From Rhizobium sp. Leaf371 (lineage in GTDB: Bacteria; Pseudomonadota; Alphaproteobacteria; Rhizobiales; Rhizobiaceae): 47,735 nucleotides of DNA. The notes below the pieces were generated by a model, which was not told the origin of the DNA, did no database searches, and worked only from the letters and a program-made list of their open reading frames with translations. The DNA is taken from assembly GCF_001424045.1 (NCBI RefSeq), contig NZ_LMQB01000028.1, forward strand, positions 360,734-408,468, in the 5' to 3' direction. Shown here one piece after another: positions 27,348 to 47,735 of the stretch (positions are counted from its first letter, which is position 1; each line of letters opens with the position of its first letter). The position numbers were made by a program, and so were the translations under genes.

Positions 27348-28106
27348 TCAGACGGCCTGGTCGTAGGCAAGGCTCGCTTCGATCAATTCACGGGCGTACG
27401 GGTCGCTTGCCTTGCCCGTCGAGAGCACCGAGCGATCCATGACTTCCACGACACGCCCATGTTGCATCACCGCCAGTCGTTCGCACATATGGTCGATGAC
27501 CGCCAGATCGTGGCTGACGAACAGATAGGTGAGATTGCGCCGTGTCCGCAGATCCGCAAGCAGGTTCAGCACCTCGGCCTGCACCGAAACGTCGAGGGCG
27601 GAGGTCGGCTCGTCCAGAAGCAGGATGCGCGGCTCGAGGATCAGGGCACGCGCGATCGCCACACGCTGGCGTTGGCCGCCGGAAAGCTCATGCGGGTAGC
27701 GGGCGAGAAAGGCCGGATCGAGCCCGACATCGGTCAGCGCCCGTTCCATCCGCTCCAACTGCCGGTCCATGCGGTGGATGCGCAGCGGCTCCTGCAGCGC
27801 CGTACGGATCGACTGGCGCGGATGCAGGGAGCCGTAGGGATCCTGAAACACCATTTGCACCATGCGGCAGTAGTCCGTGAAGGGCATGTCCTTGATCGAC
27901 GTGCCCTCCATCTCGATCGCACCGTCCCAGAGCGTCAGAAGCCGGGCGATGCAGCGCAGGATGGTCGATTTGCCGGAGCCGGATTCGCCGACGAGCCCGA
28001 AGGATTCGCCCGGCTTGACCGAAAACGCGACATCTCCGAGAATCCGCCGCTTGGCCGCGCCCGAGCCGAGATCGATCGAGACGTTTCTGACATCGATGGC
28101 ATTCAT
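27348..28106 (-). CDS. Peptide/nickel-type ABC transporter ATPase (DppF/OppF class)
   Basis: A 252-residue ATPase with Walker A GESGSGKST, signature LSGGQRQRVAIARAL, Walker B ILLLDEPTSALD and switch VSHDLAV. QDPYGSLHPRQSI after the Q-loop is typical of the DppF/OppF half. It lacks the C-terminal iron-sulphur/oligopeptide extension found in some homologues. The start (28106) overlaps the stop of the DppD-type gene by four bases and follows GGGAGG; the longer upstream frame lies inside that gene. Confidence 0.92.
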   Translation of the reverse strand: MNAIDVRNVSIDLGSGAAKRRILGDVAFSVKPGESFGLVGESGSGKSTILRCIARLLTLWDGAIEMEGTSIKDMPFTDYCRMVQMVFQDPYGSLHPRQSIRTALQEPLRIHRMDRQLERMERALTDVGLDPAFLARYPHELSGGQRQRVAIARALILEPRILLLDEPTSALDVSVQAEVLNLLADLRTRRNLTYLFVSHDLAVIDHMCERLAVMQHGRVVEVMDRSVLSTGKASDPYARELIEASLAYDQAV

Positions 28107-28975
28107 GGCTGGGCCTCCCGTGTGGTGCGTACAAGCGGCTCGCGGTTGAGAACGGGCAGCGGGCGACGGCTTCCCCCGATATGCGGCTGGGCGGCCAGGA
28201 GGCCGCGGGTGTAGGGGTGAACGCAGTTCTGCATGTCGCGCGCGGCACGCTCCTCCACCACCTCGCCATGGCGCATGACCAGCACCCGGTCGCAAAAATT
28301 GCGCACGAGGTTCAGGTCGTGGCTGATCATGATCAGGCCGATGCCCTTGTTGGTGACGAGCTCGTTGAGGATGTTCAACACCTGCATGCGCACCGTGACG
28401 TCGAGCGCGGAGGTCGGCTCGTCGGCGATGATGATCTGCGGCTCGGGGATCAGCATCATGGCGATCATGATGCGCTGGCCCATGCCGCCGGACACCTCAT
28501 GCGGATAAAGACCGTAAACCCGCTCGGGATCGCGGATCTTCACCGCCTCAAGCATGGCGAGCGTCCTCTCGCGGGCCGCTTGAGCGGACGCCTTGTTGTG
28601 GACGCGATAGGCCTCGGCGATCTGGTCGCCGACCTTGTGCACCGGGTTCAGCGAAAACTTCGGGTCCTGAAGGATCATCGACATCCGCTGGCCGCGGATC
28701 GAAAGCATCTGACGCTCGGTCGCGGCCAGGAGATCCGTACCCTCGAACTCCATCCGCTCCGCCTCGATCCGCGCCGTCGGGAGCAGCTTCAGGAGCGCGC
28801 GGCCGATGGTCGATTTGCCCGAGCCGGACTCGCCGACGATCCCGAGGCGCTCGCGTCCGAGATCGAAGGAGACGCCCTTGACCACCGGTGTATAGGTCCG
28901 TCCGTTGCGATAGCTGACGCGCAGGCCTTCGACGCGGAGGAGGGGGTTTCGGTTGTCCATCTGCGTTTCCATCAT
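28103..28975 (-). CDS. Peptide/nickel-type ABC transporter ATPase (DppD/OppD class)
   Basis: A 290-residue ATPase with Walker A GESGSGKST, signature variant VSGGMGQRIMIAMML, Walker B IIIADEPTSALD and switch ISHDLNLV. The C-terminal HPYTRGLLAAQP followed by a Pro/Arg stretch is the oligopeptide-transporter C-terminal motif. Two adjacent ATGs (28975, 28972) follow AGGAGGCG. It forms a heterodimer with the next gene product. The pair serves the two permeases encoded just upstream. Confidence 0.92.
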   Translation of the reverse strand: MMETQMDNRNPLLRVEGLRVSYRNGRTYTPVVKGVSFDLGRERLGIVGESGSGKSTIGRALLKLLPTARIEAERMEFEGTDLLAATERQMLSIRGQRMSMILQDPKFSLNPVHKVGDQIAEAYRVHNKASAQAARERTLAMLEAVKIRDPERVYGLYPHEVSGGMGQRIMIAMMLIPEPQIIIADEPTSALDVTVRMQVLNILNELVTNKGIGLIMISHDLNLVRNFCDRVLVMRHGEVVEERAARDMQNCVHPYTRGLLAAQPHIGGSRRPLPVLNREPLVRTTREAQP

Positions 28976-28981
28976 CGCCTC

Positions 28982-29890
28982 CTAGTGGCCCTGTTTCGGG
29001 TCGAGCGCATCGCGCAGTCCGTCGCCGAGCAGATTGAACGCGAGGCTGACGACGAGAATGGCGCCGCCGGGGAACGCGACCAGCCACCAGTTGTCAAGCA
29101 TGTAGCGGCGACCGGTGGCGATCATCGCGCCCCACTCCGGCAAGGGCGGCTGGGCGCCGAGGCCGAGGAAGCCGAGGCCCGCCGCCGTCAGGATGACGGT
29201 CGCCATGCTGAGCGTAACGCGGACGAGCACCGACGGCAGGCACATCGGCATGATCGACTTGACGATGATGCGCAGCTTCGAGGCACCCTGCATGCGGGAG
29301 GCGGAGATATAGTCGGCATTGCGGAAGGTGAGCGTTTCCGCCCGTGCCAGCCGCGCGATCGGCGGCCAGGCGGTCAGGCCGATGGCGATGATCGCGTTCT
29401 CGAGGCTGGCACCCAGGGCGGCCACGAAGGCGAGCGACAGGATGAGGCTTGGGAAGGACAGAAAGATGTCGGTAATCCGCATCATGACCGTATCATACCA
29501 GCCGCCGAAATAGCCGGCGGTGGTGCCGACCAGCAGACCCAGCGGGCCGACGATGACCGAGACGATGGTGATGATCGTCAGGCTGATGCGCGAGCCGTGA
29601 ACGATCCGGCTGAGGACGTCGCGCCCGAGTTCGTCGGTTCCGAAGAGATGGGCGGCCGACGGCGGCTGGAGAGCCTGGCTGAGGTTGATCAGGTTCGGCT
29701 CGTAAGGCGCGATCCAGGGTGCCAGCAGAGCCGTGACCAGCAGGATCGCGATGACCACGAGGCCGAAGCCGGAGGAGGGATTGGCGAGCAATTCCCTGAG
29801 AACACGGAGCAGGCGGCTCCAGGCCGTGTAGGTCTTCTCACGCGAAGCGGTCATGGCTGCGGTCCCGATGTCGATGGATTTCGTCGTCAT
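28982..29890 (-). CDS. Peptide/nickel-type ABC permease (DppC/OppC class)
   Basis: A 302-residue permease with an N-terminal helix, then FGTDELGRDVLSRIVHGSRISL, the highly conserved OppC/DppC motif, and five further helices. The EAA-like docking loop is ISASRMQGASKLRIIVKSIMP. The start at 29890 lies one base after the stop of the DppB-type gene and has GAGGA about ten bases upstream. An ATG twelve codons downstream is a minor alternative. Confidence 0.92.
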   Translation of the reverse strand: MTTKSIDIGTAAMTASREKTYTAWSRLLRVLRELLANPSSGFGLVVIAILLVTALLAPWIAPYEPNLINLSQALQPPSAAHLFGTDELGRDVLSRIVHGSRISLTIITIVSVIVGPLGLLVGTTAGYFGGWYDTVMMRITDIFLSFPSLILSLAFVAALGASLENAIIAIGLTAWPPIARLARAETLTFRNADYISASRMQGASKLRIIVKSIMPMCLPSVLVRVTLSMATVILTAAGLGFLGLGAQPPLPEWGAMIATGRRYMLDNWWLVAFPGGAILVVSLAFNLLGDGLRDALDPKQGH

Positions 29891-29891
29891 G

Positions 29892-30908
29892 TCAGCGCGT
29901 CCTCGGGTCGAAGATCTTGTAGAGCGCATCGGACAGGAGATTGAGCCCGATGAAGATGACACCCACCAGCAGGACGCAGGTCATCACAGCGTTCATGTCG
30001 CCCACCAGCATGTTGTTGGTGATGTACTGGCCGAAGCCCGGCCAGGAAAACACGGTCTCGATGAGCACGGCCCCTTCGAGCAGGCTGCCATAGGCGAGCG
30101 CGACGATGGTGACGAGCTGAACGCGGATATTGGCAAAGGCGTGGTGCCAGATCGTGCGGCTTTTCGAGAGGCCCTTCACCCGTGCGGTGGTCACATATTC
30201 CTGGTTCAGCTGATCCAGCATGAAGCTGCGGGTCATGCGGGTGATGTAGGCCATGGAGGAGTAGCCGAGGATGCTGGCCGGCAGGAGCAGATGGTTGACC
30301 GCGTCCCAGAAGACGTCCCAGTCCCCGGCCAGAAGCGAGTCGATCAACAGGAAGCCGGTCGTCTCCGGCACGAGGCCGATATAGTAGTCCGACAACCGAC
30401 CGCCGCCGCCGACGAGATCGAGCGCGGCGTAGAAGACGATGAGACCGATCATGCCGGTCCAGAAGATCGGCATGGAGTGGCCGATCAGCGTCAGGAAGCG
30501 GATAACGTGATCCACCGGCTTGTTGCGACGCACGGCGGCGAGGATGCCCAAGGGAATGCCGAGGCCGGCCCCGACGATGATGGCGAAGGTCGCCAGCTCG
30601 ATCGTGGCCGGCATCACATGCAGGATGTCGTTGATGACGGGCTGGCCGGTGCGGATCGAGACGCCGAAATCGCCGTGCAGCAGGTCGCTCACATATTTGA
30701 AGAATTGCTGGTAGAGCGGCAGGTTGGCGCCGATCCGCTCGGCGACCATCTCGTAGGTCGCCCTGTCCGCCTCTTCACCGACGATCGCACGCACGGGATC
30801 GACCGGCATCAGCCGCCCGATGCAGAAGGTCAGGATCAGAAGGCCGATCAGGGTGACCAGGATGGTCCCCGCCTGCCTGCCGAAAGCCGAAAAGCGCGCA
30901 TTGTTCAT
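29892..30908 (-). CDS. Peptide/nickel-type ABC permease (DppB/OppB class)
   Basis: A 338-residue permease with six helices. GDFGVSIRTGQPV after the first periplasmic loop and LLEGAVLIETVFSWPGFGQ near the end are OppB/DppB hallmarks; the docking loop is TTARVKGLSKSRTIWHHAF. AAGGAAGAAG precedes the ATG at 30908. It pairs with the DppC-type permease. Confidence 0.92.
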   Translation of the reverse strand: MNNARFSAFGRQAGTILVTLIGLLILTFCIGRLMPVDPVRAIVGEEADRATYEMVAERIGANLPLYQQFFKYVSDLLHGDFGVSIRTGQPVINDILHVMPATIELATFAIIVGAGLGIPLGILAAVRRNKPVDHVIRFLTLIGHSMPIFWTGMIGLIVFYAALDLVGGGGRLSDYYIGLVPETTGFLLIDSLLAGDWDVFWDAVNHLLLPASILGYSSMAYITRMTRSFMLDQLNQEYVTTARVKGLSKSRTIWHHAFANIRVQLVTIVALAYGSLLEGAVLIETVFSWPGFGQYITNNMLVGDMNAVMTCVLLVGVIFIGLNLLSDALYKIFDPRTR

Positions 30909-30925
30909 GACTGCTTCTTCCTTGC

Positions 30926-30965
30926 AACGCGAAGTGGTTCAGGGCAATGCGAAGTGGTTCAGGGC
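30926..30965. repeat. 20-bp tandem duplication
   Basis: Two adjacent copies of AACGCGAAGTGGTTCAGGGC, differing at one base (AACGC at 30926, AATGC at 30946). It lies in the 99-base gap between the binding-protein and first permease genes of the Dpp-type operon. No hairpin function is evident. Confidence 0.85.
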
Positions 30966-31007
30966 GTGAGACAACGGACGCGACGTGCGGGACGCCGCCG
31001 AGCCGCC

Positions 31008-32612
31008 TCAGCGCTCCTTCGTCACCGTGCGCAGCCGCGTGGACCAGGACGGATTGAGCGCCAGCCCCTTGATGTCGGCGCGGTAGCCGACGCTGTCGAC
31101 CACCTCGGCAAAGGGCTGGATGGCCGGGACGACATCGGCATAGTAGGTCTGGATCGCCTCGTAATCCTTGACCTGCGTGGCCTTGTCCGGCTCGACCAGC
31201 GCAGCATCGACCATGCCGTTGATCTTCTCGTCGTAGAAGGCCGTGCGCCAGCCCTGGAAATTGGTCAGCTTCGCCTCATCGGCATTGTCGGGATTGTAGA
31301 CGATGGCGCGCAGGTTGCTGTCGGGGTGCGGCAACTGGCCGCCGCCACCGCGGCCGACGAGCAGCTCGTACTTTCGCTCGCGCATCGCGCCATAGATCTG
31401 GTCGCCACTGCCGGTGATGATCTCGGCCTTGATGCCGCCCTGCGCCAGCGTCGCCTGGATGGCGGTCGCCGCATTCATGAAAGGCGCGTCGGAAATCGCC
31501 CGGAGCGTCGTCGAGAATCCGTCGGGATATCCGGCTTCCGCCAGCAAGGCCTTCGCCTTCTCCACGTCCAGCTTGTAGCCGGCATTGGGCAGGGCCCCGA
31601 ACAGGCCGGTCTGGATCGGGCGATCCCGGAGGCGTCCGAAATAGGGCAGGACCGTATCGTTCAGACCCTGGTAGTCGATCAGATGACGCAAGGCCTCGCG
31701 GACCTTCGGCTTCTGAAACTTCTCATCCTTCATGGACACGGCGAGATAGTAGAATCCGCTGCCGCCATTCGTCTGGACCTTGACGTTCTCGCTGGCCTCA
31801 AGCGCCTTCAGGTCGGCGGCCGACATGGAGTAGGCGATATCGATATCGCCCTTTTCCAGCATCAGCCGCTGGCTCTGGGACTCCGCCAGGTGCCGCATCA
31901 TGATGCGCTTCATGCTGGGCTTCTCGCCCCAATAGGTCTCGTTACGGTCGAGAATGACGCGCTCGTTGGAGCGCCACTGGCCGAGCGCATACGGGCCGGA
32001 CCCTGCGGAATTGTTGGTGAGCCAGGCGGCGCCGAGATCGCCCGCCTTGTCGTGCTCCATCACGGTCTTGCTGTCGAGGACCGAGCCGGGGCCGACGATG
32101 CCCAAGGTCTGGACGATGATCTGCGGATCGACCTTCTTCGGCAAGGTGATGACAACGGTCAGCTCATCGGGCGCGGTGAAGCTCTTGTCCGCATTCGCGG
32201 CAGTGAAGCCGTGCGTTTTGAGGAAGGAAGCCTGGGCGAGGTTCAGGGTCATCAACCGCTTCAGCGACCAGACGACGTCTGCCGAAGTGACCGGATTGCC
32301 GGAGGCGAAGGTCGCTCCGGATCGGAGCTTGAAGGTGATCGCCGAATGATCGGGGCTGACCGTCCAGCTTTCGGCCAGCAGCGGATCAACCTGCGCGCGG
32401 TTGACAGCATCCAGCGCAACAAGGTTATCATATATGTTGGCGAGAACTTGTACCGTCTCCTTGCCGGTGATCGCAGCCGGATCCAGCGTCAGGATATTGC
32501 TCATGGAAAAGCCGACAACCAGCATATTCGGCGGCGTTTCCGCCCAAGTCGGGCTCGTCAGCAGCGTCGAGCCGACAAGGATCGTCGAAAGGGTCTTGAT
32601 CATGCGATGCAT
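31008..32612 (-). CDS. Peptide/nickel-type ABC substrate-binding protein (DppA/OppA class)
   Basis: A 534-residue family 5 binding protein. A signal peptide is clear (MHRMIKTLSTILVGS…, cleavage near TWA-ETP). The mature part opens with a beta strand and LDPAAITG, then LVALDAVNRAQVDPLLAESW and FKLRSGATFASGNPVTSADVVWSLKR, all standard for this family. GGAGGAAA lies just before the ATG at 32612. It heads the leftward operon of two permeases, two ATPases, a GntR regulator and an esterase. Family 5 proteins bind peptides but also plant oligosaccharides and opines; beside aldarate genes an acid sugar or oligo-uronide is plausible. Confidence 0.92.
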   Translation of the reverse strand: MHRMIKTLSTILVGSTLLTSPTWAETPPNMLVVGFSMSNILTLDPAAITGKETVQVLANIYDNLVALDAVNRAQVDPLLAESWTVSPDHSAITFKLRSGATFASGNPVTSADVVWSLKRLMTLNLAQASFLKTHGFTAANADKSFTAPDELTVVITLPKKVDPQIIVQTLGIVGPGSVLDSKTVMEHDKAGDLGAAWLTNNSAGSGPYALGQWRSNERVILDRNETYWGEKPSMKRIMMRHLAESQSQRLMLEKGDIDIAYSMSAADLKALEASENVKVQTNGGSGFYYLAVSMKDEKFQKPKVREALRHLIDYQGLNDTVLPYFGRLRDRPIQTGLFGALPNAGYKLDVEKAKALLAEAGYPDGFSTTLRAISDAPFMNAATAIQATLAQGGIKAEIITGSGDQIYGAMRERKYELLVGRGGGGQLPHPDSNLRAIVYNPDNADEAKLTNFQGWRTAFYDEKINGMVDAALVEPDKATQVKDYEAIQTYYADVVPAIQPFAEVVDSVGYRADIKGLALNPSWSTRLRTVTKER

Positions 32613-32666
32613 CGTTTCCTCCACATGCTGCCTCCCAGCAGCATTCCGTTCCGCAAGTCCGACACA

Positions 32667-32681
32667 AGAGATATGACGTCT
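32667..32681. promoter_or_regulatory. Candidate operator upstream of the Dpp-type operon
   Basis: AGAGATATGACGTCT matches 12 of 15 positions of the perfect dyad upstream of kdgD (AGAGATATTATCTCT). It lies 55 bases before the start of the binding-protein gene. The downstream bases TGACGTCTTACC also match TGACGTCTCACC at 22749-22760 in the dehydrogenase control region, apart from one base. Confidence 0.45.
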
Positions 32682-32831
32682 TACCTCGACTGTCAATCTG
32701 GGATCTGGAAGAAGCGCAGTTGTCAGGACAGACCGCGAGACCGCTGTTGCGCCAGGAAAGGCGCTTGATACAGGATGTGAGGGATCGTCAGTACGCGCGC
32801 GCGTGTCTTCGGCACATGACGTGCAGAATCG

Positions 32832-32910
32832 CGATGAAAACATCGGGATGTCGGTTCCGGAACCGCGTGTCCAGCGTGTCTCACACCGCGTATCGCTTTG
32901 GACACGCGGT
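32832..32910 (-). terminator. Cluster of strong inverted repeats behind the giant repeat gene
   Basis: Three perfect dyads follow each other: ACCGCGTGTCCA (32862-32873) with TGGACACGCGGT (32899-32910); the 14-bp palindrome CGGTTCCGGAACCG (32852-32865); and CGATG-AAAA-CATCG (32832-32845), which on the leftward strand has a TTTT loop. They begin 40 bases after the stop of the giant gene and probably end its transcript or protect its 3' end. Confidence 0.55.
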
Positions 32911-32949
32911 GGCTGCGCCACCCTCCGGCAGCGCCGCCTGATTTGCGGA

Positions 32950-35900
32950 TCAGACGCTCAGCATGGACATGATGAGCGAGGCACTGTCTGCGCCGGGCGC
33001 GTCGGACGTCGCGGCCGGATCTGTCTGCGCGCTGGACGCCTCCGGAGCCTGGGCGACCCTGAAGCTGGAGGGGGAGCCGGACTGGGCGTTGATCGCGACG
33101 TCCGTCAGGGCCTGCAGCTGCGCCGTCGTCATGCCATTGATCTGGCCGGGCGTGAAAGCCTCCGCCTGCGCGACCGTCAGGCCCGCAATCGCCCGGGTGC
33201 TGAGGCCGGAGATGGCGCTGCTGCCGAGCGCGATGATGTGCTCCGGCGAAAGCCGCACGAGATCTTCCGAACCAAGCGCTGCTGCCTGCATCAGTCCGAA
33301 AGCGCCGACCTGGGAGGTGGAGAGCATTCCGATCTGTGTCGGCGTCAGCGCGCTGACCTGGCTATAGCCGAGCGCTGCGACCTGGCTGATCGTCAATGCT
33401 GCGATCTCGCCCGAAGACAGGGTGGCGACGAGCGCCGTGCCCAATCCCTTGATCGCCGTCGGTGCGATCGCCGCAAGCTCCTGGGTCGAGAAGGTCGCAA
33501 GCTGCGTGGTGGTCAGGCCCGCAAGCCCGCTTTGGCTGAGGGCGCCAATCTGGCTGCTCGTCAGCGTATCCACCTGCTCGGTGCTCAGCACGCCAAGCTG
33601 CGCACTCGTCAGTCCGGCGATGGTGCCCGTGCCGAGGCCGGCGATCTCGGAAAGCGTGAGCCCGGCAATGAAGGCGGTCGGCAGGCCCTTCACGGCCGTG
33701 GAGCCCAGCGCCGAGATCTTGGCGGGCCTCAGCGTTTCCAGGCTATCGGTCGTCAGACCCGACAGCGCATCCGAGCTGAGGGCCGCGATCTGGCTGGTCG
33801 TCAGAAGTTCCATCTGCGCCGGGCTCAGCGCTCCTGCCTGGCTGCTGCTGATACCGGCAAGCCCCTTGGTGCTCAAGGCACCGAGCTGGCTGTCGGAAAG
33901 CGTGGAGATATCGGCGGTCTTCAGGGCACCGACCTGGCCGGATGTCAAAGCACCGACCTGTGCGAGGCTCAGCGCCTCGATCTGGCCGGAGGTGAGAGCG
34001 GCAATCTGCGTGGTGGCGAGACCGGAGATGCCCCCCGTGCTCAAGGCTGCGATCTGCTGCGGTGTCAGCGTCGCGAGCATCGAGGAGGACAGTCCGGTGA
34101 CGGCCGTCGAACTGATGGATGCGATGTCGCCGGTGGTGAAACTGTCGATGTCATCCTGCCCGAGGGCGGCCAATTGTGCGGAATTCAGGACCGCAATCTG
34201 CGCGCCGGTCAGCGCCTCCGCCTGATCGACGCCAAGCGCCGCGATCTGCGTGGTGCCGAGCCCCGCAATGCCGGCCGTGCCGAGCGCTGCGATCTGGCTG
34301 ACGGAGAGAGACGCGATGGCCGCTGTCGAGAGACCCGTGATCGCCGAGGATCCGATCGCCGCGATCTGCGCCGTGCCGAGATGATCCAGAGCATCGGTGC
34401 TGAGCGCCGCCAGCTGCCGCGAGGACAGGCTGCCCACCTGAACCGGCGTCAGGGCCAGGACCTGATCCTCGCTCAGGCCGGCGATCGAGGCAAGCGGAAG
34501 CCCCATGATCCCGGCACTCGACAATCCGCTGAGCTGCGCGGGCGAGAGAACGGCGATATCCTCCGTTCCAAAGGCTGAAACCTGCTTGGAAGACAGCGCC
34601 CCGATCTGCGCCGTCGTGAGACTTTCGATCTGGGTGCTCTGCAAGGTTGCAATCTGGTCCGTGGTCAGGCCGGCCACGCCGGAGAGGCTCAGCGCTGCGA
34701 CCTGTTCGTTGGACAGCGAAGCGATCGCCGTCGTGGAGAGACCGGAGATCGCCGCCGAGCCGAACGCGGCCATATCGGCGGTCGAGAAGCCGTCGAGATC
34801 GTCGATGGCGAGCGCCGCCGCCTGCGCGGAGCTGAGGGACGCGACCTGCGTCGGGGTGAAGGCTGCCGTCTGCTCTGCACTGAGGGCCGCGATCTGCGCG
34901 CTGCTGAGGCCGGCGACCCCGTCGGCGCTCAGGGCTGCGATCTGGCGTGCCGAGAGAAGCGCAACGGACGCGGTCGTCAGTGCCGCGATCTGCTTCGACC
35001 CGAGAGCCGCGATCTGCGCGGTGGTGAGAACGTCCAACTGGTCGCTGGTGAGTGCCGCGACTTGTGTGCTGCTGAGGCCGGGGACGCTGCCGGGGCTGAA
35101 GGCTGCAATCTGATCGGTCGTGAGAGACGCGAGCGTCGTCGTGGAAAGGCCGGCGACGGCCGTCGAGGAGATGGCGGCGATATCGCTGAGACTGAAACGG
35201 GCAAGGCCACTCGTTGCGAGCGCGGCCAGCTGCCGCGAGCCGAGCGCGGCGATCTGGACAGCGTTCAGCGCCTCGGCCTGGTCGGCGCTCAGAGCGCCGA
35301 TCTGCTGGCTTGTCAGTCCGGCGACGCCGGCCGCGCTGAGCGCGGCGATCTGCGTCGTCGTCAGGGTTGCGACATCGGCGGTGGCGAGGACCGCGACCTG
35401 TCGCGAACTCAGGGCGGCGATCTGGCCGGTTCCCATCGCCTGCACCTGCGTGCTGCTGAGATGCGCGACAAGCAGGGTGCTGAGCCCGCTGATCCCGGCC
35501 GGGCTGATGGCGGCGATCTGGTCGGTCGAAAGAGCGGCGACCGCGTCGGAGCCGAGCCCGGACATCGCGTCGGACGACAGCGCGCCGAGATTGGCCGCCG
35601 CGATGGCCTGGATGTCGTCGGCGTCGAGCACGGCCGTCTGCCGTGCGGTCAGGGCGCCAAGCTGCGCGCGCGTCATCGCCGAAACCTGATCACCGCTCAA
35701 GGCGTTGATCTGGCGGGAGCTGAGCGCTCCGACGGCGGCCGTGCTGAGCGCTGCGATTTTGTCGGTGCCGAGCGAGGCGATCGTGTCCGTGGACAGTCCG
35801 ACGACGGCTGCGGGATCGATCGCCGCGATCTCGCGCGTCGAGAACGTCGCGATGGCATCGGACGAGAGGGCGGCCAGTTGGACAGAGCTCAGCGCCGCGA

Positions 35901-38900
35901 TCTGAAGGCGGGTGAGGGCATCCACCTGGTCCGTCCGTAATGCTGCCAGCTGGCGGGTGGTGAGGCCACTCACGCTCGAGGCGCTTAAGGCCCCCATCTG
36001 GGCGGTGGTAAGTGCCGCGATGGTGTCGGTTGTCAGCCCCGCGATGGCGCCGGACGTGATGGCCGCGATATCCTTCGTGGAGAAAGTCGAGATGCCGTCG
36101 GACTGGAGCACGGAGACCTGGCGCGAGGTCAGATTCCCCACCTGCGCACTGGTCAGCGCCTCCGCCTGGGCCGAGGTCAGAACGGCCATTTGCTGCGAGG
36201 TAAATCCGGCGACCGCCCCGCTGGACAGCGCCGCGATCTGCGCGGTCGAGAGAACCGCGACAGCGGACGTCGCGAGCACGCCGATCTGGGTGGATCCCAG
36301 CGCCGCGATCTGACGCGTCGAAAGGCTTGTAAGCTGATCCGTCTCGAGAACCTTGACCTGCGCGTTCGAAAGCCCGCCGATCGCGCTGCTGCTCAGCGAT
36401 CCGATGCGCTGCGAGGAGAGCGCATGAATATCCGCGGTGCTGAGACCGGCCATCTGCTGGGACGTCATCGCACCGAGCTGAGCGGAGGTCAGCGCTGCCA
36501 ATTGCGGATCCATCAGCGCTGCAATCTGATCGGCACTGAGAGCGCCGATCGCGGCGACCGTCATCGCCGCAACCTGATCGGTCGAGAAGGCCGAGACCTT
36601 GTCCGAGAGCACGGCGACCTGGCTCGCGGTCAGCTGCTTGACCTGCGCGGTAGAAAGGGCGGCGAGCTGCGCGGTGGTCAAGGCCGACGACTGCGCCGTC
36701 GACAGGCCGGGAAGCGTCGCCGTGCCGAGTGCGGCAATCTGCGCTGTCGAAAGCGCGGCAACGGCATCTCCGCTGAGGCCCGACAGCGCCAGACTGCCAA
36801 GAGCCGCGATGTTGGCGGTCGGGAAGGCCGAGATGTCCTCGACCTCCACCGCGCCCATCTGCGCGGCGCTCAGAACCTTGACCTGCGACACGGAAAGGGC
36901 GCCGATCTGGCCGGGGCCCATCGCTGCAATTTGGGTGGCGGTCAGCTTGGCGAGGGCGTCCGTGCTCAAGGCGCGGATCTGCGCGGTGGTCAGCGTTTCC
37001 ATCACGTCGCCACTGAGGCCGGTGATGGCCGTCGCGCTGATGCCGGCAATGTCTGCCGTCGAGAACGTCGCGAGATCGTCGGCCCCGAGCGCGGCGAGCT
37101 GCGCGGAGGTGAGCGCGCGCACCTGCGTGACCGAGAGTGCCTCGACCTGTGCCGTGCCGAGCGCCCCGACCTGCGCCGTGGTCAGGCTGACGACGGCTAT
37201 CGTTCCCAAGGCCGCGACCTGCGCCGTGTCGAGCGTGGCGATGACCTCGGCACTGATGCCGGGGACGGCGCGGCTGCCGATGGCCGCGATCTGCGTCGTC
37301 GAAAAGGCTGCGAGATCGCCCGCGTCGAGTGCCGAGAACTGCTGCGCGGTCAACTGTGCGACCTGCGTGGTGCCGAGGGCTGAAAGCTGCGCCGTGCTGA
37401 GTGCGGTCATCTGCCCGGCCGTCAGCACGGGAATGGTGCCGGCGCTGAGCGCGCTGACCTGCGCGGTGGAGAGCGCACCGATCTGCTCGGAGGACAAGGC
37501 CGCAACCTGCGTGGCGCGCAGAGCCGCGACCTGCGCGGTCGTGAGTGCCGCGACCTGGCTGGTCGAGAGGTTCGCGATGTTGACGCCCTGCACGGCGGAC
37601 GTCGTGAGCGCCGCGACATCATCCGTGGAGAGCGTCGCCAGGGCCTCTTCGCTCAAAGCGGAAAGCTGCACGGCACTGAGCGCGGCCATCTGCGTCGGCG
37701 ACAGGATCTCGATCTGCGCCGTTCCCATTGCGGCAAGCTGCACCTTCGTCAGGCTGGAAACCTGGGCCGTCGTCAAGGCTTCGATCTGCGCGGCCGAAAG
37801 CGTTGCGGCAACCTCCGTCGTCAGCCCCGAAAGGGACGATTTGGAGATCGCGCCGATGTTGTCCGGGATGATGGCGGCGAGATCATCCGCGCCAAAGGCC
37901 GAAAGCTGAAGGGCTGTGAGCGCCTTGAGCTGGTCGGATGAGAAGGCAGCGACCTGGTCCGCCTGCAGCGCGTTGATCTGCGACGTGGTCAGACTGGCGA
38001 CCGCGCTCGTGCTCAACGCCGCGATCTGGGCCGCAGACAGCGCGGCAAGCGTGCCCGTCTGAAGACCGGAAATCGCCCGGTTGGTGATCGCGGCCATGTC
38101 CTCGTTGGAGAAGGTGAGAACGGCGTCCGTGCTCAAGACGGCGACCTGCGCCGCGGCGAGTGCGCGGATCTGTACGGCGGTCAGAGCCGCGACCTGCTCC
38201 GTGCTCAGCGCCGCCACCTGCTGCGTCGTCAGGGCGCCGGTCTGACCGGACGTCAGCGCCGCGATCTGATCGGTGGACAGAAAGCCGATGGCATCGGCGC
38301 GAAGGCCCTTGATCGCGGAGGTCGAAAGGCCGGCCAGGGCCGACGGGGAGAAGGAGGGGAGCGTGGTTTCGCCGAGGATCGCCATCTGGGTCGCGGTCAG
38401 CGCCCGTGTCTGGCTCGATGTCAGGGCGGCCGTCTGTTCGGCGCTCAGGCTTCCGAACTGCTGCGTGGTCAGACTTCCCAGCGCCTGCGAGCCGAGCTTT
38501 GCGATCTGGGCGTTGGAGAGGGCGGCGAACTGGTTGACGCCCCAGCCGGTGATCTGTGCGGCGCCGAGAGCACCGATCTGTGCCGGCAGCATCGCTGCGA
38601 GGTGATCGGTCGTCAGCGCGTTGATCTGCGTGCTCGTCAGGACGGAAACGGTCGCGGTGCTGAGCGCGGCGAGCTGCGCCGCCGACAGGGCTGCGACGAC
38701 GGTGGTGTTGAGGCCTTGCACCGCCCGGCCGTTGATGGCGGCGATGTCGGTCGGTGAGAAATTGGCAATGTCGCCGGCGTCGAGCGCGGCGAGCTGGATC
38801 GTGCCGAGGGCTTTGACCTGCACGGGTGTCAGGGCCGTCAGTTGCGCACCGTCGAGCGCCCCGATCTGCCCGCTGGTGAGGGCGCTGATGACGCTTGTTC

Positions 38901-39972
38901 CGAGCGCCGCGACCTGCGCGGTCGTCAGACCGGGAATGGCATCCGTGCGAACGCCGCCAAATGCCTGGCCGGTGAGGGCGGAAATCGCGGCGGTCGACAA
39001 GGCGCCCAGCCCGTCGGACGAGAGAGCGGCGAGTTGGGTCGAGGTAAAGGCCTTCACCTGCAGTGAGGACAAAGCGGCGATCTGGTCCGTGCTCAAGGCA
39101 GCCACCTGAGTGGCGGACAGCGATGCGAGGGACCGGGAGGCCAAAGCGTTGATCTGGACCGGGGAGAGGGTCGCAATTTGCTCCGTGCTCAGCGTGGCCA
39201 GCTGTGCGCCGCTCAGGGCGCCGGCCTGTCCGGACGTCAGGGCGGAAAGCCGCTCGGCCGAGAGGTTGGCGATCTGCAGACCGGTGATGGCCCGCGTGTT
39301 GATCGCGCCGATATCCTCAAGCGACAAAGCCTCGACATCTTCGGCTCCGAGCGAGGCCAGCTGGAGCGAGCCGAGGACCGAGACCTGCGGCGAGGTCAGC
39401 GCTTCGACCTGATCCCGGCTCATGGCGACAATCTGGTCGGTCGTGAGGCTCGCGACGGCGCCGGTGTTCAGCGCCGAAATCTGATCGGTCGTCAGGGACG
39501 AAAGCACGTCCAGCTGAAGGCCGCGGATGGCGGAACTCGAGATCGCGTTGATATCGGCTGTCGAGAAGGTGGCGAGATCCTCCTGGCTCAGGGCGGCGAG
39601 CTGATCGCTGGTCATCGCCTTGATCTGCGCAGGCGTCAGCGCCTCCGCCTGCTCGGCCGTGAACGCGCCGATCTGTGTCGAGGTCATCCCGCCGACCTGT
39701 GTGGAGGAGAGCGCCTCGATGCCGGCCTTGTGCAGAACGCTCAGCTGATCGAGGGTCAGGCCGACGATGGCGGCACGCGAGATGGCGTTGAGCTGCTCGG
39801 TGCTGAGAACCTCCACATCCTCAACGTCGAGAGCGGCGATCTGCGTGGACGACAGGGCCCGGATCTGAAGCGTGGAGAGGGAGCTGACATCTTCCGTCGT
39901 CCAGGCCGCAACCGCAGGCGCCGACATCGATCGGATCTGCGAGACGCTCAGGCCGGAAGCAATTGTCGTCAT
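32950..39972 (-). CDS. Giant octapeptide-repeat protein (2,340 residues)
   Basis: I do not recognise a named family. After about seven residues almost the whole protein is an 8-residue repeat, consensus near L-S/T-x-x-Q-I/V-x-A, about 280 copies in near-perfect register. Octads are grouped in tens (80 residues), each group opened by an acidic octad such as DDLATFST or EDIAAFST-like, then a D-I-A-A-I octad and an A-I-x-G-L octad; 7-octad groups also occur. Ala, Ser, Thr, Leu and Gln dominate; I saw no cysteine and few lysines. There is no signal peptide. A non-repeat tail of 44 residues ends LIMSMLSV. S/T-x-x-Q/E/D is a helix N-capping pattern, so a stack of short helices is possible. The start is supported by the matching N-terminus of the paralogue at 47227 and by GGGGA upstream. 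A secreted or surface structural protein is inferred. Confidence 0.85.
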   Translation of the reverse strand: MTTIASGLSVSQIRSMSAPAVAAWTTEDVSSLSTLQIRALSSTQIAALDVEDVEVLSTEQLNAISRAAIVGLTLDQLSVLHKAGIEALSSTQVGGMTSTQIGAFTAEQAEALTPAQIKAMTSDQLAALSQEDLATFSTADINAISSSAIRGLQLDVLSSLTTDQISALNTGAVASLTTDQIVAMSRDQVEALTSPQVSVLGSLQLASLGAEDVEALSLEDIGAINTRAITGLQIANLSAERLSALTSGQAGALSGAQLATLSTEQIATLSPVQINALASRSLASLSATQVAALSTDQIAALSSLQVKAFTSTQLAALSSDGLGALSTAAISALTGQAFGGVRTDAIPGLTTAQVAALGTSVISALTSGQIGALDGAQLTALTPVQVKALGTIQLAALDAGDIANFSPTDIAAINGRAVQGLNTTVVAALSAAQLAALSTATVSVLTSTQINALTTDHLAAMLPAQIGALGAAQITGWGVNQFAALSNAQIAKLGSQALGSLTTQQFGSLSAEQTAALTSSQTRALTATQMAILGETTLPSFSPSALAGLSTSAIKGLRADAIGFLSTDQIAALTSGQTGALTTQQVAALSTEQVAALTAVQIRALAAAQVAVLSTDAVLTFSNEDMAAITNRAISGLQTGTLAALSAAQIAALSTSAVASLTTSQINALQADQVAAFSSDQLKALTALQLSAFGADDLAAIIPDNIGAISKSSLSGLTTEVAATLSAAQIEALTTAQVSSLTKVQLAAMGTAQIEILSPTQMAALSAVQLSALSEEALATLSTDDVAALTTSAVQGVNIANLSTSQVAALTTAQVAALRATQVAALSSEQIGALSTAQVSALSAGTIPVLTAGQMTALSTAQLSALGTTQVAQLTAQQFSALDAGDLAAFSTTQIAAIGSRAVPGISAEVIATLDTAQVAALGTIAVVSLTTAQVGALGTAQVEALSVTQVRALTSAQLAALGADDLATFSTADIAGISATAITGLSGDVMETLTTAQIRALSTDALAKLTATQIAAMGPGQIGALSVSQVKVLSAAQMGAVEVEDISAFPTANIAALGSLALSGLSGDAVAALSTAQIAALGTATLPGLSTAQSSALTTAQLAALSTAQVKQLTASQVAVLSDKVSAFSTDQVAAMTVAAIGALSADQIAALMDPQLAALTSAQLGAMTSQQMAGLSTADIHALSSQRIGSLSSSAIGGLSNAQVKVLETDQLTSLSTRQIAALGSTQIGVLATSAVAVLSTAQIAALSSGAVAGFTSQQMAVLTSAQAEALTSAQVGNLTSRQVSVLQSDGISTFSTKDIAAITSGAIAGLTTDTIAALTTAQMGALSASSVSGLTTRQLAALRTDQVDALTRLQIAALSSVQLAALSSDAIATFSTREIAAIDPAAVVGLSTDTIASLGTDKIAALSTAAVGALSSRQINALSGDQVSAMTRAQLGALTARQTAVLDADDIQAIAAANLGALSSDAMSGLGSDAVAALSTDQIAAISPAGISGLSTLLVAHLSSTQVQAMGTGQIAALSSRQVAVLATADVATLTTTQIAALSAAGVAGLTSQQIGALSADQAEALNAVQIAALGSRQLAALATSGLARFSLSDIAAISSTAVAGLSTTTLASLTTDQIAAFSPGSVPGLSSTQVAALTSDQLDVLTTAQIAALGSKQIAALTTASVALLSARQIAALSADGVAGLSSAQIAALSAEQTAAFTPTQVASLSSAQAAALAIDDLDGFSTADMAAFGSAAISGLSTTAIASLSNEQVAALSLSGVAGLTTDQIATLQSTQIESLTTAQIGALSSKQVSAFGTEDIAVLSPAQLSGLSSAGIMGLPLASIAGLSEDQVLALTPVQVGSLSSRQLAALSTDALDHLGTAQIAAIGSSAITGLSTAAIASLSVSQIAALGTAGIAGLGTTQIAALGVDQAEALTGAQIAVLNSAQLAALGQDDIDSFTTGDIASISSTAVTGLSSSMLATLTPQQIAALSTGGISGLATTQIAALTSGQIEALSLAQVGALTSGQVGALKTADISTLSDSQLGALSTKGLAGISSSQAGALSPAQMELLTTSQIAALSSDALSGLTTDSLETLRPAKISALGSTAVKGLPTAFIAGLTLSEIAGLGTGTIAGLTSAQLGVLSTEQVDTLTSSQIGALSQSGLAGLTTTQLATFSTQELAAIAPTAIKGLGTALVATLSSGEIAALTISQVAALGYSQVSALTPTQIGMLSTSQVGAFGLMQAAALGSEDLVRLSPEHIIALGSSAISGLSTRAIAGLTVAQAEAFTPGQINGMTTAQLQALTDVAINAQSGSPSSFRVAQAPEASSAQTDPAATSDAPGADSASLIMSMLSV
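33085..39951 (-). repeat. 24-bp / 240-bp coding repeat array
   Basis: DNA behind the octapeptide repeat: a 24-bp period throughout and a 240-bp super-period marked by the acidic octad. Module starts measured by reading the protein fall 80 residues apart in most cases; others are 136 (80 plus 56) or 109 residues apart. Copies differ at many positions, so the array is old and under coding constraint rather than a recent tandem expansion. Confidence 0.85.
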
Positions 39973-41972: not shown

Positions 41973-44448
<2,476 letters not shown>

Positions 44449-44524
44449 GTCGTCCTGCCCTCTCGTCGATGTCGTCATTCGGTTGCGGCGATGCGCCGGA
44501 TACCGGGAGCGCGCCTGCCTGTCG

Positions 44525-44540
44525 CCGTCCCCCCGGACGG
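44525..44540 (-). terminator. Short hairpin between the two glycosyltransferase genes
   Basis: CCGTCC and GGACGG pair around CCCC, 9-24 bases after the GT41 gene stop. A weak intercistronic hairpin; the genes are probably still cotranscribed. Confidence 0.25.
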
Positions 44541-44548
44541 GCGTCGGA

Positions 44549-46597
44549 TCAGTCGTTTTCGGTCCAGAACCGGGTGTCCCGTGCGATCGGCGCGTATGCG
44601 TGCCGCTGCGCAAGTTCCTGGCGGTACCGCTCGCGGTAGCTCGTCTCGGTCTCGAACTCGATCGGCTCGGACAGAAACTCGACGCCGACCTCGTAGTAGA
44701 TGTCCAGGTTGTCGAGGCGCGGCACGGGAATTTCGCCGCGCTCGCCTTCACCCTGCATCTGCCAGTACAGTTCTTCGAGTCGGCGCACGAGGGCCGGGAT
44801 ATCGCGCAGTGCACAGGTTTCCCGCTGCGCTTGCAGCGATTGACGAACGCTCAGCAGGCTTTCGGGGTCGCGAGCATAGGCGATCGCCTTGGCGACATAG
44901 GCATCCGGCGTATCGCAGATCATCTCCGGAATGCCGGCGGCCGACAGGATGCTGCTGCAGAAGCGCGAGGCAAAACCCTTGCCGCGCAGCGTGAGCACCG
45001 GCAGGCCCATGGTCACCGCGTCTGCAGCCGTGGAATGCGCGCCATAGGGGAACGTATCGAGGAAGAGATCGGCCACACCGATGCGAGCGAGGTGGAAGGC
45101 ATTGGGCGCCTTGGGGGCGAAGATCAGGCGATCCGCATCCACCCCGTGATCGATCGCGAGCTGGCGAAGCCGCTGATTGACCGGCTCCGAAGCGCCGAGC
45201 AGCCAGAGCACGCTGCCGGGCACGGCGGCGAGGATCGCCATCCAGCGCGAGAAGCAGGCGGCTGTCGTCTTCTGCGAGCCGTTGAAGCAGGCGAACACGA
45301 AAGCATCGTCCGGAAGCCCGGCTTCCTGCCGCGTCGGCTTGTTGGCGATCTTGCGCTTGCGGTCCACCGGCTGGTTGCAGGGAATGCGCAGCACCTTCTC
45401 GGTATAGTAAAGCTCGTTTTCCGGCGGGATGATCTGCGCGTCGGCGATGATGTATTGATGGACCGGGCTCGCCATTGTTCCGGGATAGCCGCAGAAGTTG
45501 ACGATGACCGGCGCCGGGCGATAGGCGAAGATCTTGGTGCGCGCGTGCTTGGTGTAGCCGTTCACATCGACCAGGATGTCGATTTCGTCGGCGAGGATCT
45601 GCTTGGCGGCATCGAGGTCGTTGAGCGCCCCGATGTCGTGCCAGTGATCGACGGCCGCCTGAATACGGGTCTGCGTCACGTCGCCGGTGCGGGCTTCGCC
45701 GCAATAGTAGGCGAAGACCTCGACGCTCTCCTTGTCGTGCAGTTCCAGCACCTCGCTCAACGCGAAACCGACCGCATGGTCACGCAGGTCGGACGAGACA
45801 TAGCCGATCCGCAGGCGTGCCTTGGTGCCGGTCTTTGGGCGCGGCGAGGGCTGCAGGATATCGCGGGCATGGACGCGGCCGACGAGATGCTTGTTGTAAC
45901 GGTAGGCCTTCGCCATCTGGAAGATCGGGTCGTCCGTGTAGCAGGCGAGGGGCAGCGGCGAAAATGCTTCCAGCAGTTGCCGATTCGCTACATATTCCGA
46001 AGGGGTGAGGATCGGCCACTTGCACTGGTGCTGGCGGGTGGAGAGCCAGTGCTGTGCAGCCTCGGTACGGTCAGGCCGCAATTCGACTGCCTGCCAGAGA
46101 ATGGCTTCGGCATCTTCGAGCAGGCCGACGCTCTCCATAACGCGACCGATATGCTGCAGCGCCATCAGGCGGTAGCCGATCTTCTCCGGCGTGATGTCCT
46201 GCGTGGCGGCGACATATTGCTGCCATTGCTGCACGGCCTGTGCATTCAGGCCGCTGTCTTCGTAGGTCCGGCCGAGATTGATGCGGGCCTGCCCCATCTG
46301 CGGCGCGATCTTCACGCTTGCCTGGAGCGCATTGATGGCGCCGGACAGGTCGTCCAGCCCCCTCAAGGTGACGGAATAGTTGAAATAGGCGAGATGCAGG
46401 ACCGGGCTGTTGTCGTTGTAGGCGATCCATGTGCTGTAGAGCTTTGCCGCTGCAGCTCCCGAGCCGCCCGCGTTCAGCTCCTCGGCGATCTGAAAGAGCT
46501 CGAGAAGCGAGAGCTGCTGCTGGCGCGCACGCTCGATGGCGGCCGCAAGCATCGACTGGTGTGCTGAGGCAAAGGTATTATGCATAACCATGGACAT
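44549..46597 (-). CDS. TPR-containing GT41 (O-GlcNAc-transferase/SPINDLY-like) glycosyltransferase
   Basis: About 682 residues. The N-terminal third has TPR-like helical pairs (residues about 50-200, e.g. ALQASVKIAPQMGQARINLGRTYEDSG). The rest is the GT-B catalytic region of family 41: LRIGYVSSDLRDHAVG, VDVNGYTKHAR, VNFCGYPGTMASP, FACFNGSQKTT and DLFLDTFPYGAHSTAADAVTMGLPVLTL. In bacteria such proteins glycosylate Ser/Thr (or Asn, in HMW1C) of surface proteins and flagellins in the cytoplasm. Three in-frame ATGs (46597, 46591, 46585) lack a good ribosome site; the first is used here. It lies between two giant Ser/Thr-rich repeat genes, which are attractive substrates. Confidence 0.88.
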   Translation of the reverse strand: MSMVMHNTFASAHQSMLAAAIERARQQQLSLLELFQIAEELNAGGSGAAAAKLYSTWIAYNDNSPVLHLAYFNYSVTLRGLDDLSGAINALQASVKIAPQMGQARINLGRTYEDSGLNAQAVQQWQQYVAATQDITPEKIGYRLMALQHIGRVMESVGLLEDAEAILWQAVELRPDRTEAAQHWLSTRQHQCKWPILTPSEYVANRQLLEAFSPLPLACYTDDPIFQMAKAYRYNKHLVGRVHARDILQPSPRPKTGTKARLRIGYVSSDLRDHAVGFALSEVLELHDKESVEVFAYYCGEARTGDVTQTRIQAAVDHWHDIGALNDLDAAKQILADEIDILVDVNGYTKHARTKIFAYRPAPVIVNFCGYPGTMASPVHQYIIADAQIIPPENELYYTEKVLRIPCNQPVDRKRKIANKPTRQEAGLPDDAFVFACFNGSQKTTAACFSRWMAILAAVPGSVLWLLGASEPVNQRLRQLAIDHGVDADRLIFAPKAPNAFHLARIGVADLFLDTFPYGAHSTAADAVTMGLPVLTLRGKGFASRFCSSILSAAGIPEMICDTPDAYVAKAIAYARDPESLLSVRQSLQAQRETCALRDIPALVRRLEELYWQMQGEGERGEIPVPRLDNLDIYYEVGVEFLSEPIEFETETSYRERYRQELAQRHAYAPIARDTRFWTEND

Positions 46598-47226
46598 CAC
46601 ATTGATCGTGGGCTCGGAGCCGCATTGAAAGACGGTAAGAGCTTCACAACTAGCGACGTTGCCTTGCCTTGAGCTTGCGGCCGCTGCGCATCGTAAATGT
46701 AAGCTATGCTTTTCCAAGAGATGTTCTTGTTACCAAGCAGCTCGCTTTCCGCGATGTCTATAGGCACAATGAAAGCGCCATCTCCGCACAAGTTTGTCGA
46801 GATAACGACTATAACGTGGTCTACACACTTTCTTCATGTTGCGTTTTAACTGAAAATTAGAAGGTGCCGCCTACAACTTGGAATGTGGATTGTGTGCTGT
46901 TTTCCTTCCGCGGGAGATGGGGCCATCCACAGGGGAATTCACGGACGACCATAGTATTCGATACCATAGGTGTGGGAGCAGAGGCTTTGACTCTGCATGC
47001 ATGATGCCACCCCACGTCAGGCTCGCGTGAGCCATGTTTCCAGATATTCTTTCCGCTCGAATGAGCGCCACACCTCTGTGCCGAGCCCGATGGAGCCTGC
47101 AGCAGGACTGGCGATCGTTTGAAGATGCCCGGCGCATCCTAGGCTCTGTGACGCGAGGCTCCGCCTTTCGCTGCAGGCATCGGAGAGGAATGAATATTAA
47201 TCCTTGAACGATGAAGGCGCGCACCT
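46598..47226. other. Long intergenic region upstream of the second repeat gene
   Basis: 629 bases with no gene I can support. The left half (about 46690-46960) is clearly AT-richer than the surroundings, for example around 46840-46860. Short dyads such as GTAT-TCG-ATAC near 46955 and GGCTC-GCGT-GAGCC (47020-47033) are present. It should carry divergent promoters for the GT41 gene and the second repeat gene. A 117-codon leftward open frame here (46871-47224) has no recognisable features. Confidence 0.5.
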
Positions 47227-47735
47227 ATGACCTCGATTGTATCTTCTCTCAGCGTAAAACAGATCCAGTCCCTCAATACGACCACCATCGCGGCGTTCAC
47301 GACCAGCGACGTGGGTGCTCTCACCTCGGTTCAGATTGCCGCTTTTTCATCGCAGCAAATCGCAGCCTTCACCACGGACGACCTGACGGCATTCAGCTCG
47401 ACACAGCTGCGCGCGGTCTCCGCGTCCGCTGTCACGGGCCTGACGGCCGGGCAGCTCGCCGTGCTCGACAGCACCAAGCTGGCAACGCTCGTGTCCAGCC
47501 AGGTCGCAGCCCTGACATCCGCTCAGGTCGCATCTCTTTCCTCCGGTCAGCTTGACGGCCTGACGACAGCCCAGCTCGGCGCCCTGAGCGCCGTTGCGCT
47601 GGCAGGCTTCGCAACCGAAGACATGGCGACGATCTCCTCCACCGAGATCTCGGCGCTGAGCGCCAAGGCGCTCGGCGGCCTGTCCACGGCGAACTTCGCA
47701 GTGCTCACCTCCACCCAGCTCGGCGGTCTGACGAC
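47227..47735 (+). CDS. Second octapeptide-repeat protein, 5' part (runs off the window)
   Basis: ATG at 47227 opens a frame with no stop to the window edge (169 codons visible). The N-terminus MTSIVSSLSVKQIQSL aligns with MTTIASGLSVSQIRSM of the giant protein encoded at 32950-39972. The rest is the same octapeptide repeat (L-T-S-A-Q-V-A-S type). The acidic octads DDLTAFSS and EDMATISS are exactly ten octads (80 residues) apart, as in the first protein. GAAGG lies about ten bases before the start, a weak site. No signal peptide. Total length unknown. The direction is away from the glycosyltransferase genes, mirroring the first copy. Confidence 0.87.
   Translation, partial: MTSIVSSLSVKQIQSLNTTTIAAFTTSDVGALTSVQIAAFSSQQIAAFTTDDLTAFSSTQLRAVSASAVTGLTAGQLAVLDSTKLATLVSSQVAALTSAQVASLSSGQLDGLTTAQLGALSAVALAGFATEDMATISSTEISALSAKALGGLSTANFAVLTSTQLGGLT

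Follow-up and report, generated by a model that had tools for sequence, protein, structure and literature searches.

A giant ALTTAQ-repeat protein of Rhizobium sp. Leaf371 with a linked GT41 gene: a candidate glycosylated, type I-secreted helical screw

We analysed a 47,735-nucleotide stretch of the Rhizobium sp. Leaf371 genome (contig NZ_LMQB01000028.1; hereafter the window), in which gene A encodes a protein of 2,340 residues built nearly throughout from eight-residue repeats, or octads, and lies near a glycosyltransferase gene of family GT41. We consider it probable that gene A encodes a solenoid which is O-glycosylated by its own GT41 enzyme before export, leaves the cell by type I secretion and forms surface fibres. 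We also lean somewhat towards a wider view, in which two dedicated groups of TPR-containing O-GlcNAc transferases (OGTs) have such arrays as their native substrates. The arrays would be densely O-glycosylated fibres with sugars at octad position 3 and a pitch of about 27.1 residues, and arrays and enzymes would belong, together with sugar-donor genes and often a type I exporter, to a module of alpha-, beta- and gammaproteobacteria. To our knowledge, most bacterial OGT homologues have no known natural substrate. If our reading is true, the arrays and their GT41 enzymes would provide an enzyme-substrate pair whose genes are linked and which is open to test. The arrays would then also represent a new type of glycosylated fibre, exported by type I systems of proteobacteria that live with plants or in the environment, and a helical scaffold of high regularity and fixed pitch.

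The octad array and its turn

The open frame of gene A runs on the minus strand from 40224 to 32950, and its start is the ATG at 39972, whose Met is residue 1 in the aligned relatives. Dynamic programming followed 285 octads in one chain over residues 8-2296, in agreement with the initial annotation, which had put their number at about 280 and the length of the array at more than 2,200 residues. The strict register claimed there holds nearly throughout, but is broken by three slips, at the octads beginning at residues 216, 789 and 1114. In this chain position 1 is Leu in 79% of the octads, position 2 Ser/Thr in 72%, position 3 Ser/Thr in 60%, position 5 Gln in 56%, position 6 Ile/Val/Leu in 88% and position 8 Ala in 55%. 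The Fourier power of hydrophobicity peaks at 8.0 residues (37.2) and 4.0 residues (32.8), while the highest value among 100 shuffles, computed on a coarser period grid, was 10.0.

The Pfam family PF20080 (ALTTAQ_rpt) matched gene A with 1,052.5 bits (cut-off 26.4) in 88 stretches, and its octad consensus is the same as that of gene A. Gene A is therefore a member of PF20080, and the earlier statement that no named family exists for it was wrong. In the Pfam output this known repeat family is only a name; the turn, the partner enzyme and the exporter described here come from the present analysis. There was no NCBIfam model for the array, and its weak Pfam matches (LRR_EndoS, CAAP1, Sigma70_r4_2 and others) were set aside as chance matches driven by the repeats. 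Full-text searches of open-licence PubMed Central found no paper on ALTTAQ or HeliScrew, and PF20080 appeared in no paper among the matches listed, so that neither the Pfam name nor this literature yielded a function for the family. Both of two proteins checked with Pfam, in addition, contained ALTTAQ repeats. The public names given to such arrays, ICE nucleation protein and heme utilization protein, would need correcting.

One solved chain, HeliScrew4 (PDB 9zem, 120 residues), matched gene A in sequence (E 8.8e-15 and 9.4e-17; a 47-residue stretch is shown in the alignment). It has the same eight-residue pattern in its sequence, but is a short chain, unlike the giant array, and presumably an engineered one, to judge from its name. 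It was not among the best 50 of 445 Foldseek matches of the gene A model in the PDB. The best of these were mesothelin chains with weak local likeness (TM about 0.25), from which no homology was taken, nor was any from sequence matches to leucine-rich-repeat proteins in the PDB (E 0.001 and weaker).

We modelled two parts of gene A with AlphaFold2, residues 1-240 (46 relatives; pLDDT 93.1, pTM 0.86) and residues 1289-1528 (13 relatives; pLDDT 95.1, pTM 0.86). Both models contain a single short helix per octad, and among the helices listed 26 of 27 and 30 of 30, respectively, start at octad position 3. The octads are predicted from these models to fold as mini-helices. In a capping box the N-cap residue pairs with the N3 residue; because the helices begin at position 3, position 2 is the N-cap and position 5 the matching N3, and Ser/Thr at position 2 thus needs no further reason. 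In each short helix, Ser/Thr at position 2 would act as the cap and Gln at position 5 would complete the capping box, while Leu/Ile/Val at positions 1 and 6 would form the core and position 3 would be exposed on the surface of the screw.

The two-level periodicity described in the initial annotation is real, but its upper level is a turn of about 27.1 residues, of which 80 residues is a by-product. When octads of gene A were compared at lags of 1 to 40, identity at lag 10 was 0.405, whereas 1,000 shuffles of the octads averaged 0.314 (z 11.0). This lag and lags 27 (216 residues, z 8.0), 17 (136 residues, z 6.7) and 34 (z 5.3) all lay above the largest z that the shuffles reached at any lag (4.2). 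The 95% level of 3.0 was passed by lags 20 (z 4.1) and 37 (z 3.7); lags 3, 7, 14, 24 and 30, which are poorer whole-number fits to 3.39 octads, did not stand out. The proposal that every tenth octad is acidic held only in part: there are 17 acidic octads (at least two D/E at positions 3-6) among the 285, and a spacing of exactly 10 was found in 5 of the 16 cases.

The strongest acidic period in gene A is 27.0 residues (power 43.8); with the octads joined its power is 23.1, and the maximum in 200 octad shuffles was 9.2. Fourier peaks had been expected at 8 and 80 residues: the first was found in hydrophobicity, but the stronger upper-level signal is this 27-residue acidic period. Among 86 open reading frames (ORFs) with arrays, the acidic period that scored best in the range from 22 to 34 residues was 26.8-27.6 in 85 (median 27.1), with a power of at least 12 in 82; in the exception, L107, the strongest acidic period overall is 13.6 residues, about half of 27.2. 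Within the same range, eight of the nine real arrays found later on plasmids were best at 27.05-27.35, the other being that of Pseudomonas asturiensis. When 10,260 octads were aligned on the acidic phase, Lys/Arg and position-8 Gly peaked opposite to it, and the profile was nearly flat in shuffles.

The upper level is thus better described by a turn of about 27.1 residues (3.39 octads) than by an 80-residue module, which the octad lags and acidic periods led us to replace as the basic unit. Repeats of 80, 136 and 216 residues amount to about 3, 5 and 8 turns of a screw with about 3.39 octads per turn. Successive octads would be turned by about 106 degrees, or by an alias of this angle since octads only sample the turn, and in the resulting long screw an acidic stripe would lie opposite a face richer in Lys/Arg and Gly.

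The opposed acidic and basic faces along the arrays raise the possibility that the screws lie side by side, acidic to basic face, in an S-layer-like sheath or lattice. Such an arrangement is compatible with glycosylation and export, and not exclusive of the fibre that we propose. It would suit the two giant arrays present in many genomes, and glycosylated surface-layer or fibril proteins of the RTX type, SwmA and oscillin, are described in an excerpt of PMC3034196. We regard it as doubtful, since arrays were found in only 6 of 385 genomes of the class (the window's own included; strict limit, E 1e-8), a patchy distribution unlike that of a main coat protein.

A linked GT41 gene and octad position 3

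The GT41 of the window matched PF13844 with 229.3 bits (cut-off 25). Its TPR scores fell below the cut-offs (TPR_8, 24.2 against 25.7; TPR_14, 22.8 against 23.5), and several of its array-linked relatives have TPRs above them. It aligned with XcOGT at E 5e-77, mammalian OGT was also matched, and the 19 solved relatives found at E 1e-5 comprise XcOGT, OGTs, an O-glycosyltransferase, SPINDLY and a TPR repeat protein. The His and Lys residues that we take to be catalytic are kept in the alignment to XcOGT. Like XcOGT and the eukaryotic OGT and SPINDLY proteins, the enzyme has a GT41 catalytic domain, here with a candidate TPR-like part; what sets it apart is the position of its gene, which links it to a single family of giant proteins.

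A first draw of 61 relative genomes held 12 with arrays (the window's own included) and 49 without. A GT41 gene lay beside an array in 11 of the 12, the twelfth (G026) having no GT41 in its genome. Relatives at least 46% identical to the window GT41 over most of its length were present in 11 of the 12 array genomes and in none of the 49 others (Fisher 2.9e-11, or 1.5e-10 without the window's genome, relatedness not being allowed for). In a second draw of 61 loci from genome contigs, whose species overlap with the first, GT41 was found in the examined flank of 41, at a median of 402 bases from the array. Fifteen of the remaining 20 genomes have a GT41 no more than 6 kb from a listed array match, mostly beside another array, so that the gene stands beside an array in 56 of the 61 related loci or their genomes; in G451, G453, G456, G457 and G462 there is none within 6 kb of a listed array match. 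The class sample added GT41 within 5 kb in three of five further array genomes. Twelve of 57 plasmid records were opened, and GT41 occurs in seven of the nine that are annotated and have real arrays. These counts are not independent, as the 86 ORFs, the 61 loci, the relatives and the plasmid records overlap and are related.

For an unrooted maximum-likelihood tree of 49 GT41 domains we chose 28 array loci and the window (31 rows) together with 18 unlinked stretches. The array-linked domains form two groups, of 21 rows (support 100/100) and nine rows (100/99), with none of the 18 unlinked domains inside either; the stray second GT41 of L091 falls outside. Niveispirillum-type loci and Pseudoroseomonas carry one GT41 from each group. 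Other GT41 genes are found in most of these genomes.

If the GT41 decorates the array, its target hydroxyls should be kept where the enzyme is present, and the capping hydroxyls everywhere. We compared 107 arrays, locating their octads by a search that leaves positions 2-5 free. For 97 of them the genome or record contains an array-linked GT41, for 4 the genome has none, and 6 were set aside. Left out were L127 and L131 (not arrays) and L155 and L156 (duplicates), and the grouping was our own, made after the first values had been seen. In 96 of the 97 linked arrays, 52-99% of octads (median 77) had Ser/Thr at position 3, the value for gene A being 61%, as against 16% in L096, 32% in L132, 28% in L153 and 33% in L154, which lack an array-linked GT41 (p 0.0009). 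Position 2 did not differ (median 77% in linked and 75-100% in unlinked arrays, p 0.38), and neither did positions 4 and 5. The arrays set aside had 66% (L057), 64% (L090), 59% (L071) and 74% (L087) where the genome has a GT41 elsewhere, and 45% (L124) and 49% (L133) in plasmid records of unknown genome.

The linked GT41 would add sugars to Ser/Thr of octad position 3 in the cytoplasm, at well over a hundred possible sites in gene A (about 60% of the 285 octads). Nucleotide sugars and finishing enzymes would be supplied from nearby genes, here by Glf and elsewhere by UDP-glucuronic acid decarboxylase, methyltransferases or other glycosyltransferases; Glf is the sugar gene of rhizobial loci, and a UDP-glucuronic acid decarboxylase gene lies near the array in Pseudoroseomonas. 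In an Oxalobacteraceae locus (L102, 4615-7821), GT41, glycosyltransferase 2 and methyltransferase domains are joined in one protein, which by its domains looks as if it builds and caps a short glycan.

It could be argued instead that the screw is secreted to the surface but not glycosylated by the linked GT41, which would be a chaperone or modify something else, such as a surface protein or glycan. Helix capping explains the position-2 hydroxyls, most of these genomes hold other GT41 genes, L092 has few position-3 hydroxyls despite a linked GT41 in its genome, and a chaperone role has been proposed for the GT41 enzyme HMW1C (excerpt of PMC3983070). This alternative seems unlikely to us, given that the catalytic domain aligns well with OGTs, that sugar-nucleotide or sugar-modifying genes lie nearby in several lineages, and that Ser/Thr reaches at least 52% at position 3 in 96 of 97 linked arrays but in none of the four unlinked ones.

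Export and comparison with known systems

The N-terminus of gene A (MTTIASGLSVSQIRS...) shows no signal peptide, as judged by eye without a predictor. At the other end, SASLIMSMLSV is common to all five same-genus A proteins printed, one of them with a Leu-to-Met change, and many other array relatives finish in DQ(I/V)AAVISAYL-like or VASxIxSYL-like peptides. By its sequence, this conserved end is a candidate uncleaved secretion signal. Genes for HlyB-type ATP-binding cassette (ABC) transporters and HlyD adjoin arrays in Duganella-type and Niveispirillum-type loci, Cereibacter sphaeroides 2.4.1 and Pseudoroseomonas, and full type I systems with TolC do so on two Pseudomonas plasmids; type I systems are found beside arrays in Oxalobacteraceae, the Niveispirillum group, Paracoccaceae, Pseudomonadaceae and Acetobacteraceae. 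On plasmid pA of Cereibacter sphaeroides 2.4.1 the array, a GT41, an ABC transporter with a peptidase domain and HlyD are immediate neighbours. For one array-adjacent ABC transporter the nearest model was TIGR01846 HlyB, at a score under the cut-off. Two Pseudomonas arrays have in common a C-terminal end that is not array sequence.

By analogy with these lineages, and in view of the conserved C-terminal end, rhizobial arrays may also be exported by a type I secretion system reading the C-terminal signal. The glycosylated screws would then assemble into fibres, either at the cell surface or within the biofilm matrix, and a fibre in either place is the function that we favour for gene A. The initial annotation saw in it a structural or adhesive surface protein, which the genes for type I secretion and protein-glycosylating enzymes beside arrays in several lineages indirectly support.

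Several observations weigh against this reading. No type I gene was recognised in the window or beside rhizobial arrays, and only four of the nine plasmid array stretches have a type I system, such genes being absent from those of Rhodovastum, Thioclava and Shinella and from two rhizobial ones. A search for the C39-type HlyB, in which 18 candidates were scored in each genome, yielded nothing at E 1e-70 in G000-G006, G020, G023 and G026 and only partial matches of 33% in G009 and G017, whereas relatives 37-53% identical to it over most of its length occur in the array-less G021, G034, G040 and G015; the idea that this exporter is specific to array genomes within the order was not supported. Of 13 genomes searched for a PrtD-type exporter 11 have one, but these include the array-less G006 and not G009 or G046. 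The array stretches of Thioclava and Shinella lacked GT41 in tblastn searches with two positive controls, and their arrays are intermediate at position 3 (45 and 49%). L092 (127 octads) comes from a genome in which GT41 is array-linked, and yet has only 21% Ser/Thr at position 3. The four low position-3 arrays belong to scattered lineages and are among the weaker family matches; the value for L154 is drawn from 15 octads, and in two of these four cases the genome has a GT41 elsewhere. The 27-residue acidic period is outranked by 16.0 in L105, L106 and Cereibacter and by 19.6 in one Pseudomonas array. Finally, we know of no GT41 enzyme that uses UDP-galactofuranose, which Glf supplies, as donor.

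The lack of a visible signal peptide in gene A and of recognised export genes near rhizobial arrays would also suit a scaffold or filament that stays inside the cell, never exported, and is modified by an OGT-like regulator. We hold this to be improbable in the face of the type I systems beside arrays in five groups, the shared non-array C-terminal stretch in the two Pseudomonas arrays and the conservation of the extreme C-termini.

As for known systems, the HMW1 adhesin is giant and exported and has a cytoplasmic GT41 of its own, HMW1C (excerpt of PMC3983070), and by analogy gene A and its GT41 may work like HMW1 with HMW1C without belonging to that system. HMW1, HMW1C and HMW1B involve two-partner secretion, N-linked sugars and an AAD rather than a TPR domain, unlike gene A, with its OGT-type GT41 and the type I secretion genes of its relatives. 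Gene A is not counted as a member because its GT41 is OGT-type, the exporters seen differ and Asn is rare. Although HMW1C, itself of family GT41, modifies a linked giant adhesin (same excerpt), it is very improbable that the window GT41 is an N-glycosyltransferase of that kind acting on Asn: none of its 19 solved relatives at E 1e-5 bears the name HMW1C, the NGTferase model gave 28.5 bits against a cut-off of 1,000, and gene A has 28 Asn in 2,340 residues.

An excerpt of PMC3034196 describes RTX and other type I substrates as large proteins of repetitive make-up that leave through ABC/HlyD systems and keep their C-terminal signal uncleaved. Gene A differs from RTX proteins, whose repeats are glycine/aspartate nonapeptides, in its eight-residue, predicted all-helical repeats, and no RTX family was among its seven Pfam matches up to E 10.

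The locus and its relatives

The features of the window are listed in Table 1; the Pfam scan of its neighbouring genes covered nine proteins. The neighbours of gene A are, in order, an MFS gene, glf, the gene for the Methyltransf_FA protein and the GT41 gene, with the divergent gene B after them.

Table 1. Positions in the window of gene A, its parts and neighbouring features
Feature	Position	Strand	Basis or remark
Gene A, giant ALTTAQ array protein, 2,340 residues	32953..39972	minus	ORF and start; PF20080, 1,052.5 bits
Array of 285 octads (residues 8-2296), predicted solenoid of mini-helices with 27-residue acidic period	33085..39951	minus	Register chain, AlphaFold2, periods
Ser/Thr-rich C-terminal tail ending ...SASLIMSMLSV, candidate uncleaved export signal	32953..33084	minus	Shared ends; putative role
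GT41, O-GlcNAc-transferase-like, N-terminal TPR-like part	44552..46717	minus	PF13844, 229.3 bits; weak TPR matches; start unsure
Glf, UDP-galactopyranose mutase, likely sugar-donor gene	41976..43130	minus	PF03275, 259.2 bits
Methyltransf_FA-domain protein, possible second glycan enzyme	43195..44814	minus	PF12248, 35.1 bits; start unsure
Gene B, start of second giant array	47227..47735	plus	Divergent from GT41; continues past window end
Peptide-type ABC transporter genes beside gene A	27348-32921		Binding protein and one permease by Pfam, rest by eye

A tblastn match to Glf was found in 29 of the 61 related loci, always with GT41 (some loci are cut by the flank end), and the Methyltransf_FA protein in 8 of 61. 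Pseudorhizobium has the same order of array, GT41, Methyltransf_FA protein and glf. In the Leaf371 genome gene B is split by a contig end (contigs C28 and C25), within very similar repeats and with ambiguous bases, and the assembly is unreliable there. The same-genus genomes G001, G002 and G004 have the layout of the window with both arrays unbroken on one contig, gene B being contained in frames of 2,123 and 2,188 residues. The binding protein of the peptide ABC transporter adjoins arrays at 94-96% identity only in L038-L041.

Searched with the N-terminus of gene A, the nearest relatives come from Rhizobium, Ferranicluibacter, Agrobacterium, Sinorhizobium, Ensifer and others. A phage origin, suggested by a match of PHROG 15773 to part of the array, was rejected, as the first 240 residues had no match among phage records. 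Plasmid matches from Polaromonas and Spiroplasma, without the 27-residue period and with a weaker 8-residue one, were not counted as arrays; the protein of the Spiroplasma plasmid psAtri5 (L127) nevertheless matched the array N-terminus in tblastn at E 8e-22. In the array-less genome G021, of the same family, there are six matches to GT41 and a C39-type HlyB (51% identity), a set that may serve another giant substrate. Two arrays lie near flagellar genes, L125 (Rhodovastum) near a flagellar set and L134 (Pseudorhizobium) near flagellins and FlgE.

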